A DNA stretch of 51,695 bases from Lachnospiraceae bacterium. Lineage in GTDB: Bacteria > Bacillota > Clostridia > Lachnospirales > Lachnospiraceae. A program made the translations under genes and the position numbers. Under the pieces are notes generated by a model. It was given only the letters and a program-made list of their open reading frames with translations, made no database searches and was not told where the DNA came from. Location: assembly GCA_017449765.1 (NCBI GenBank), contig JAFTFE010000005.1:1-51695 (forward strand), given 5' to 3'. Shown here in pieces: positions 23,759 to 26,469 of this stretch. The first letter of the stretch is position 1. Each line of letters starts with the position of its first letter.

Positions 23759-25300
23759 ATGACATTTTGGATTGTATTGGCATTTGTTCTTTATATGGCG
23801 CTTATGATGTTTATAGGTATATCAAACGCTAAGAAGAACAAGAATGCAGATGATTATTTCTTAGGAGGAAGAAGTCTTAACGGCTGGGTGGCAGCACTTT
23901 CGGCTCAAGCTTCGGATATGAGCGGTTGGCTTTTGATGGGACTTCCGGGAAGTATATATGCCTTTGGTACCAATCAGGCATGGATAGCAGTAGGCCTTTT
24001 CATAGGTACGGTGCTTAACTGGATATTCATATCGGGAAGACTCAGAAGATACACCATAAGAGCGAATAATTCCCTTACCATACCGGAATACTTAAGCAAC
24101 AGATTCGGAGATAATAAGAAGGTGCTTATGGCCATATCTGCCATAGTTATTCTTATATTCTTCTTAGTATATACGGCTTCAGCATTTGCTTCAGGCGGAA
24201 AGCTTTTTTCTTCGATAGTGGATATTGATTATCATACGGCATTGTTTGTTGGTGCGGTTGTAATACTTGCATATACGTTTTTAGGCGGATTCTTAGCCGT
24301 GTGTACAACAGACTTTATACAGGGTATGATGATGCTTGTAGGTATACTTGCTGTTCCGATTATAGCAGTAGCAATACTTGGCGCAAATAATATCATCCCG
24401 AACCTTATCGACAGCGGTGTGGGTGATGCAAGTGATTACCTTAATATATTTGTGGAAAATGGTAAGCCTATTACTGCAGTAAGTATAGCTTCACAGCTTG
24501 CTTGGGGACTCGGTTACTGCGGTATGCCTCATATACTTGTCAGATTCATGGCGATTAAGGATGAGAAGGAACTTTCAAAATCCAGAAAAGTAGCAATAGT
24601 TTGGGTGCTTCTTTCACTTGTGGTAGCATGTATAATCGGTGTTATAGGACGTGCATATCTTTATCCTGAAATATTGTCAAATGACGGAGCTGCATACGAA
24701 AAGGTATTCATTGAAATGATAATGAAGATATTTACGAAAGATTCAAATCTTCCGTTCCTTGGCGGTATACTGCTTTGTGGAATACTTGCTGCGATTATGT
24801 CAACGGCAGATTCACAGCTTTTGGTATCATCCTCATCTATATCGGAGGATTTGTTTAAGGGAGTATTTTTCAAGAATATGAAGGAAAAGACAGTTCTTGT
24901 TATTGCCAGAGTATCAGTTCTTGTAATAGCTGTTATAGCATTTGCGATAGCATGGAATCCTGATTCAAGTATAATGGGACTTGTATCTGATGCATGGGCA
25001 GGTCTTGGTGCAGCATTCGGTCCTACGATACTTATGTCCCTTTATTGGAAGCGGATTAATTTGCCGGGAGCGGCAGCAGGTATGATAAGCGGAGCTGCAA
25101 CGGTTATAATTTGGGATTACATTAAGTTCATAGATATGGATGGTGCAAAGGTTACACTTTCCACATACACCGGAGCATACTCACTTCTTATAGGATTCTT
25201 TGTAAGCTTACTTTTTATCGTGGTTGTATCACTAATTACACCTAAGGTAAACGACGAGATAGCAGAGCAGTTTGATGATGTAAAGAACGGAAAAGTATAA
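23759..25300 (+). CDS. putP: Sodium/proline symporter (SSS family)
   Basis: A 513-residue sodium:solute symporter with about thirteen membrane segments. The PutP signature is clear: NADDYFLGGRSLNGWVAALS near residues 25-45, then ASDMSGWLLMGLPG, and later AWGLGYCGMPHILVRFMAIK and ADSQLLVSSSSISED. Together these match proline-specific PutP rather than pantothenate or sugar members. Proline may serve as nutrient or osmolyte. GAAGGA precedes the ATG, two bases after thiN. A strong terminator follows, closing the long plus-strand run. Confidence 0.9.
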   Translation: MTFWIVLAFVLYMALMMFIGISNAKKNKNADDYFLGGRSLNGWVAALSAQASDMSGWLLMGLPGSIYAFGTNQAWIAVGLFIGTVLNWIFISGRLRRYTIRANNSLTIPEYLSNRFGDNKKVLMAISAIVILIFFLVYTASAFASGGKLFSSIVDIDYHTALFVGAVVILAYTFLGGFLAVCTTDFIQGMMMLVGILAVPIIAVAILGANNIIPNLIDSGVGDASDYLNIFVENGKPITAVSIASQLAWGLGYCGMPHILVRFMAIKDEKELSKSRKVAIVWVLLSLVVACIIGVIGRAYLYPEILSNDGAAYEKVFIEMIMKIFTKDSNLPFLGGILLCGILAAIMSTADSQLLVSSSSISEDLFKGVFFKNMKEKTVLVIARVSVLVIAVIAFAIAWNPDSSIMGLVSDAWAGLGAAFGPTILMSLYWKRINLPGAAAGMISGAATVIIWDYIKFIDMDGAKVTLSTYTGAYSLLIGFFVSLLFIVVVSLITPKVNDEIAEQFDDVKNGKV

Positions 25301-25540: not shown

Positions 25541-26002
25541 ATGAATAAGATAAAAATTCTTACGGTAGGAAATGTTAAGGAAGCTTATTTTAGAAATAAA
25601 ATTAATGCTTTGTGCAAAGAAATAAATAAAAAATACAGTGTGGAAATTGTCGAAGTATCTGATGAAAGCATACCTAAGAATCCGGGTGAGGCGATAATTG
25701 AGAATATAAAAAATATCGAGGGTAAGAAGCTGTTGTCCAAGATAGATTCTAAAGATTATGTGATTGCTCTTTGTATAGATGGCAAACCGACCGCAAATGA
25801 CGATATGATTAAACTTATGGATAGGGTGTTTGGTAATTACTATAATTCTGTGGTATATGTTATAGGAGGGTCACTCGGACTTTCAGGCGAGGTCGTAAAG
25901 AGGGCAGATTATAAATTGAGCTTTTCAAATATGACATTTCCGCATCAGCTTATGAGAGTTATGCTCCTTGAAGCAATATCAGATGTGTGCAGGAAGGCTT
26001 AG
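25541..26002 (+). CDS. rlmH: 23S rRNA pseudouridine-1915 N3-methyltransferase RlmH, tail-less form
   Basis: A 153-residue SPOUT methyltransferase. It keeps the start KIKILTVGNVKE, the strand VIALCIDGKP (74-83), the SAM-binding loop VIGGSLGLS (107-115) and LSFSNMTFPHQLMRVMLLE (126-144). Normal RlmH then ends in EQIYRAFxIxxxxPYHK. Here the sequence breaks off after LLE into AISDVCRKA, so the catalytic tail is missing and no remnant lies downstream. The N-terminal helix also lacks the usual EYxKRLSAY motif. In RlmH dimers the tail of one protomer completes the active site of the other, so this protein alone should be deficient. The tail is present in the convergent paralogue at 26029-26469. Confidence 0.93.
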   Translation: MNKIKILTVGNVKEAYFRNKINALCKEINKKYSVEIVEVSDESIPKNPGEAIIENIKNIEGKKLLSKIDSKDYVIALCIDGKPTANDDMIKLMDRVFGNYYNSVVYVIGGSLGLSGEVVKRADYKLSFSNMTFPHQLMRVMLLEAISDVCRKA

Positions 26003-26030
26003 TATAGGTATACAAAGCTTTCCTGTAATT
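25990..26030. terminator. Hairpin shared by rlmH and the convergent rlmH-like gene
   Basis: CAGGAAGGCT (25990-25999) pairs with AGCTTTCCTG (26016-26025) with one G-U pair across a 16-base loop. The left arm is the last codons of rlmH. Flanking runs are T/A-rich but weak, so a two-way terminator is likely rather than certain. Confidence 0.6.
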
Positions 26031-26469
26031 ATTTGTGATAGTTTATATTGTTATTGATTGTGTAAGCTCTGTAAATCTGCTCAGATAAGGCCACCGCTGT
26101 TGGACCGGAACACATACTAAAACTTGTCAGATTGAATATCTCATATGAATAATCTGACATTAATTTCAAAAAATTATTTAAGATTTTGTCATCGTGTTTT
26201 TTCTCATCAGGTATTATGAATTCAATGCAGGAATATCCGCTTATACTTATGTCCGTAATCTTTTTCGCAAGTTCGGGCGATGTAAATGAAGCTTTACCCG
26301 GTACCACAACGAATTTATAAGAATTATCCTTCAAAGAAAGTCCGGCGAAATCTTTATACAGTTTCTTACTTACATCTGCAAAAGCGGATGTTCGCTTGAA
26401 GTATTCATTAATCGCCTGTTCATAATCGGTATCAAATTTCTTTAAATCTATATGTAATATAATCTGCAT
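26029..26469 (-). CDS. Diverged RlmH-like SPOUT protein lacking the SAM loop, keeping the catalytic tail
   Basis: A 146-residue protein on the minus strand, convergent to rlmH. Its N-terminus matches the RlmH fold: the segment AINEYFKRTSAFADV (19-33) parallels the GIEEYTKRLSAYAKI type helix of ordinary RlmH. VVVPGKA (54-60) parallels the ALxIxGK strand. The C-terminus SEQIYRAYTINNNINYHK (129-146) parallels the EQIYRAFRINRGEPYHK tail. The glycine-rich SAM loop is gone, replaced by FIIPDEKKHDDK, and the FPHQLMR segment is degraded to CSGPTAV. It should therefore not bind SAM. ATG 26469 is chosen because AAAGGA lies 8-9 bases upstream; the frame is open further up without support. It probably pairs with the tail-less RlmH. 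Confidence 0.85.
   Translation of the reverse strand: MQIILHIDLKKFDTDYEQAINEYFKRTSAFADVSKKLYKDFAGLSLKDNSYKFVVVPGKASFTSPELAKKITDISISGYSCIEFIIPDEKKHDDKILNNFLKLMSDYSYEIFNLTSFSMCSGPTAVALSEQIYRAYTINNNINYHK

Follow-up and report, generated by a model that had tools for sequence, protein, structure and literature searches.

Two complementary, half-defective RlmH paralogues appear to replace the single RlmH gene in some Lachnospiraceae and related Clostridia

In some bacterial relatives of gut Clostridia, the RlmH homodimer appears to have given way to two half-defective copies that seem functional only as a pair. In a 51,695-nucleotide stretch of a Lachnospiraceae genome (contig JAFTFE010000005.1 of GCA_017449765.1, positions 1 to 51,695; hereafter, the window), two RlmH-like genes, A and B, very probably encode an obligate head-to-tail heterodimer that would methylate N3 of pseudouridine 1915 in helix 69 of 23S rRNA at one composite site. 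Sequence comparison gives strong evidence of complementary residue loss in the two proteins, of their co-occurrence, and of mutual exclusion with full-length RlmH; from these we infer the physical dimer, its obligate dependence on both chains, the failure of B to bind SAM, and the target and product.

In Escherichia coli RlmH, SAM is held by one monomer (glycine loop 103-107 and pocket residue H129), and the partner monomer provides R25, R26, R142, Y152, H153, and R154 (Koh et al. 2017; PMC5430550). R25/R26 are part of the RNA site of the tail-donating protomer, and E138, R142, and Y152 make up a triad. The mutants E138A/Q, Y152F, H153F, and R154A were inactive, R142A lost at least 30-fold in kcat/KM, and H129A retained about half of its activity. 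Crystals of the RlmH dimer contain two SAM molecules (PMC5430550); according to a review, the arrangement suggests that just one of the two SAM sites is catalytic (PMC9508554). The residue logic of an earlier note on this DNA, including the role that it gave to the EYxKR helix, agrees with the mechanism described in those passages.

Both open reading frames that the note had taken for convergent RlmH-like genes at 25541..26469 were confirmed (Table 1), and both match the RlmH / YbeA / OrfX family (COG1576, PF02590; cut-off, 27 bits). A matches with an E value of 4.6e-36 (124.6 bits) and B with 7.7e-11 (42.7 bits; profile positions 17-154). Since the alignment of A spans only positions 2-141 of the 154 in the profile, its end is missing; after FPHQLMR the protein reads LLEAISDVCRKA, with no YHK, so that A has GGSLGLS and FPHQLMR without the tail, as the note had described. 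Its account of B held as well: INEYFKRTSAF and SEQIYRAYTINNNINYHK are present, and FIIPDEKKHDDK stands where the glycine loop should be. Against the NCBIfam RlmH equivalog NF000985, A scored 156.4 and B 40.8, both below the cut-off of 172, and thus neither chain alone is a standard RlmH. Structure prediction gave each chain an RlmH fold, including the minimal SPOUT fold.

B starts with the ATG at 26469, has AAAGGA just upstream of it, and stops at 26029-26031; 26 bases separate the stop codons of the two genes. A promoter/terminator scan found nothing resembling a terminator between A and B, and promoter-like matches were in excess, 23 versus a mean of 8.9, in this AT-rich DNA. Directly upstream of A, at 23759-25300, the window has a sodium:solute symporter gene (PF00474), which adjoins A also in the other pairs of the genus that were examined.

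Table 1. Features of the two RlmH paralogues in the window (residues in E. coli numbering)
Feature	Position	Strand	Remarks
Gene A, RlmH paralogue	25541-26002	+	153 aa; SAM pocket kept, catalytic tail missing
A, GGSLGL glycine loop (SAM bight 2)	25865..25882	+	G103, G107 in 64/64 A
A, FPHQLMR (bight 3, H129)	25937..25957	+	H129 in 64/64 A
Gene B, RlmH paralogue	26029-26469	-	146 aa; catalytic tail kept, SAM loop missing
B, catalytic tail EQIYRAYTINNNINYHK	26032..26082	-	Equivalents of E138, R142, Y152, H153, K154
B, stretch FIIPDEKKHDDK, at the place of the SAM glycine loop	26185..26220	-	GG at 103-104 in 0/63 B
B, EYFKR (R25/R26 equivalents, partner side of RNA site)	26392..26406	-	K25, R26 in 63/63 B

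Residues were counted, in E. coli numbering, in 64 A and 63 B proteins of split genomes and in 135 full-length proteins. The latter comprise a selection of 69 and a further 66 among the matches listed in another scan, these 66 exclusive of proteins scoring ≤100 bits on a full-length model; the counts omit G247, which is cut by a contig end, and a second B of G005. The SAM pocket is kept in A, where G103, G107, T126, and H129 were each found in all 64 proteins and G104 in 63, while Y152 was found in none, R142 in 13, K25 in 27, and R26 in 9, and no A has a Y-H-K end. The pattern is reversed in B. K25, R26, Q139, Y141, R142, I146, Y152, H153, and K154 are all present in 63 of 63 proteins, E138 is present in 62 (G658 has K), and none has GG at 103-104; GG occurs elsewhere in two B proteins (G405 and G658). 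Full-length proteins retain both sets (G103, H153, and R26 in 134/135; H129, E138, R142, and Y152 in 135/135). The glycine loop with H129 is thus found only in A and R142 with Y152-H153-K/R154 only in B, and the tested catalytic and SAM-binding positions of RlmH are complete when A and B are summed. The same picture emerged from an earlier count of 45 A, 45 B, and 42 full-length proteins, in which B kept the dimer-interface hydrophobics at positions 122 and 127 (45/45 each) and 125 (44/45) and lost the conserved interface residue I74. Position 73 is a cysteine, in the motif ALCI[DE]G, in 49/64 A versus 28/135 full-length proteins.

In the proposed heterodimer, the knot of A would bind SAM, and the opposite side, contributed by B, would consist of the E138-R142-Y152 triad with H153 and K154 and of the RNA contacts K25/R26. 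Each heterodimer would have a single composite active site because A is tailless and B would be unable to bind SAM; the mirror site would be empty on both counts. E138 is kept in 58 of the 64 A proteins and replaced in six (W, Q, Q, D, D, and Q). Its loss from these A proteins and retention in all but one B would be expected if only the E138 of the tail donor acts, yet 58 of 64 is more than would be needed if the E138 of A plays no part, and this counts against the heterodimer. So do the K at position 138 in G658, the loss of I74 from B, one genome with only A, another with only B, and the single full-length gene in five genomes of the genus of the window. In a different reading, methylation is done by homodimers of A alone, whose catalytic base has been rebuilt, and B serves outside the active site to regulate, to chaperone, or to dock on the ribosome. 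The frequent E138 and the retention of the tested SAM-pocket residues in A would suit it, as would the existence of inactive activating paralogues in other methyltransferases (PMC10908127), but we consider it unlikely. The tail residues that were essential or important in E. coli mutants (Y152, H153, K/R154, and R142; PMC5430550) are invariant in B, where a mere regulator would have no clear reason to keep them, whereas A never ends in Y-H-K and is found without B in just one (G396) of the 61 genomes that have A.

The distribution of the two genes across genomes also points to the heterodimer as a replacement for RlmH. We searched 774 distinct genomes (G000-G773) for PF02590 in overlapping draws from the genus (37), family (396), order (197), and class (214), and doubtful genomes were searched a second time. 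Both A and B were found in 60 genomes. The genus accounts for 30 (of its 37), the rest of the family for 14, the rest of the order for 10, and the rest of the class for 6. The remaining seven genomes of the genus comprise the five with a single full-length gene and two without a match (79% and 64% complete). A occurred alone in G396 (94% complete) and B alone in G469 (98% complete, 250 contigs), so that the co-conservation expected by the earlier note is nearly strict. Sixty pairs among 774 genomes, together with a kept-and-lost pattern that has few exceptions, are more than chance would give. No RlmH match was found in 47 genomes at thresholds of 0.01 (genus and family), 0.001 (order), and 1e-6 (class); seven of the eight genomes of one family of the order (f4) are without a match, which suggests real loss. 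The other 665 genomes, as far as their matches were listed, had a full-length-type match or a broken one; those with a single match were taken in bulk, as one match means that there is no second gene above the threshold. At least three more pairs are among the matches listed in the scan that also gave the 66 full-length proteins, in an uncultured Coprococcus (L120), Lachnospiraceae RGIG4480 (L137), and an uncultured Clostridium (L167).

A full-length rlmH elsewhere in the genome had been named beforehand as a test of the proposal; the genome of the window (3.42 Mb, 191 contigs, listed as 100% complete, 5.3% contamination) contains no third RlmH match even at an E value of 10. Nor was full-length RlmH seen together with a complete A or B in any of the 774 genomes, among which those whose best match was strong and accompanied by a second match were inspected. 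One of these, G612, turned out to have a split pair. Second matches were below the cut-off in G014, G103, G209, G296, G395, and G408 and were short or contig-edge fragments in G114, G669, and G717. In G447 (L193 and L212), two full-length-type rlmH copies lie 3.1 kb apart, the second with an internal stop; it is possible that this is a first stage of duplication. Several apparent splits were rejected: a full-length gene cut by contig ends (G247), frameshifted full-length genes (G505 and G649), one divergent full-length gene each (G259, G440, G448, and G760), and a broken gene (G768). G033 (71% complete) has a full-length gene on a 3-kb contig, and its symporter contig stops where A would start. 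In addition to its A-B pair, G005 (L103) has another B, unlike the first, on a contig of 4.4 kb; it could represent contamination or an extra copy.

Among 62 pairs measured, 45 were convergent, 9 were tandem with A before B, and 8 were not on one fetched stretch. Convergent gaps within the genus ranged from -29 to +109 bases, and the two genes often share 10, 17, or 29 bases at their 3' ends, read on opposite strands (e.g., L117, L118, and L114), which ties the last residues of A to the antisense of the tail of B. In two one-contig genomes, the genes are 2.33 Mb (G445) and 0.41 Mb (G455) apart, and yet both are kept; linkage is thus unnecessary for their joint survival, and dependence on an operon is ruled out by pairs that are unlinked or on separate contigs. 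In G445, the B that lies so far from its A still carries EYEKR, EQIYRAF, and YHK, and it lacks GG. The small one-contig genome of G721 (L251; 1.5 Mb) has a tandem A-B pair whose genes overlap and are very diverged; other members of its family that were drawn have full-length scores. In several genera, a protein without a Pfam match adjoins B in varied orientation (L095:5293-5937, L096, L091, L110, L111, L137, and L167); it has 215 aa in L095 and 307 aa in L110, and the matches include weak ones (23-30% identity).

Each copy alone looks defective, and the genome of the window is fragmented, as might be expected if A and B were decaying duplicates or an artefact of assembly or binning. However, both genes are under purifying selection, with dN/dS of 0.04-0.17 in A and 0.06-0.29 in B (finite dS only), and the pair is present in 60 genomes, including one-contig genomes. 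The dN/dS values and the one-contig genomes refute decay or artefact as a general explanation, which we regard as very improbable. It is also conceivable, though improbable, that the heterodimer is real and acts at a site or RNA other than pseudouridine 1915, a reading that the fast divergence of both chains would suit. Against such a change of target, the pair was not seen alongside full-length RlmH in the genomes searched, B shows no variation at the residues on the RNA side (K25, R26, R142, and K154), and the helix 69 stretch is unchanged, with no mismatch in five split genomes (G018, G302, G445, G455, and G507) and two full-length genomes. A search for the helix 69 pattern in the assembly of the window itself gave no match, perhaps due to the absence of rRNA from this assembly.

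A tree built from 51 A and 59 full-length rows placed 50 of the A rows in one group (SH-aLRT 95) and left G431 apart. Within the order, a single origin of A was not rejected (p-AU 0.707; 40 A versus 40 full-length rows). In a class-wide set (A, 24 rows; full-length, 29 rows), the hypothesis that all tail-less A share one origin was rejected (p-AU 0.0004); this result is post hoc, since the wider set was assembled once the first trees were known. Without G612 and G633, the P value was 0.516. The A proteins of these two genomes group with full-length proteins of their own families (support, 96 and 94, respectively), with the same placing in another tree, and the A of G612 ends in LNNEP, with its stop just ahead of YHK, the mildest loss seen. 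B proteins cluster together (88), although their branches are long, and one origin of B was not rejected; placing the B of G633 with the full-length proteins of its family was disfavored (P = 0.025), and the same placing for G612 was borderline (0.051). In order-level trees, several B subgroups mirror A subgroups. The earlier note had proposed that each copy lost the part kept by the other after duplication; the complementary loss stands, but not as one event, as the tail of A appears to have been lost in more than one origin. Tentatively, these trees suggest that B originated early and that A lost its tail more than once. We hold it about evenly balanced whether a SAM-dead, tail-donating B had one or a few origins, spread through the Clostridia, and repeatedly allowed the resident full-length RlmH to lose its tail, giving the same heterodimer several times.

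A bacterial split RlmH appears to be new: in agreement with the earlier note, no two-gene RlmH was found in searches of the open-license PMC literature on RlmH, its paralogues, and SPOUT heterodimers. RlmH is one gene forming a homodimer with two SAM sites, whereas A and B are two genes that would form a heterodimer with one possible active site. Among partial parallels, METTL3-METTL14 is an m6A enzyme of a superfamily other than that of RlmH. Its methyltransferase chain is active only with an inactive paralogue predicted not to bind SAM, but catalysis resides in METTL3 (PMC10908127), unlike in the model for A and B. Trypanosomatid deoxyhypusine synthase pairs an impaired catalytic subunit with a dead paralogue, both essential, although it is a eukaryotic, unrelated enzyme for which allosteric activation is described (PMC3663545). 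The mt-LAF5/mt-LAF6 pair of Trypanosoma brucei is a natural SPOUT heterodimer at a large ribosomal subunit, as A-B would be, but it was found on an assembly intermediate of the mitoribosome, at the A-loop, and, in the passages concerned, is not presented as complementary RlmH halves (PMC12123411). An inactive SPOUT subunit has also been suggested in yeast (Tkaczuk et al. 2007; PMC1829167), and with mt-LAF5/6 this means that the principle is not new.

The split RlmH seems to offer a clean example of how a homodimer can be resolved into two genes, each half-defective and complementary to the other. Possible early stages are still visible, such as the A of G612, and the order of loss is therefore open to study. 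The split also points to the E138 of the tail donor as the catalytic one, and a natural enzyme with one possible composite site would provide evolutionary evidence on whether one RlmH site acts. Its occurrence suggests that one active site per RlmH pair is enough, and if the tail was indeed lost repeatedly beside a B that had spread, RlmH dimers in general would need just one of their two possible active sites.
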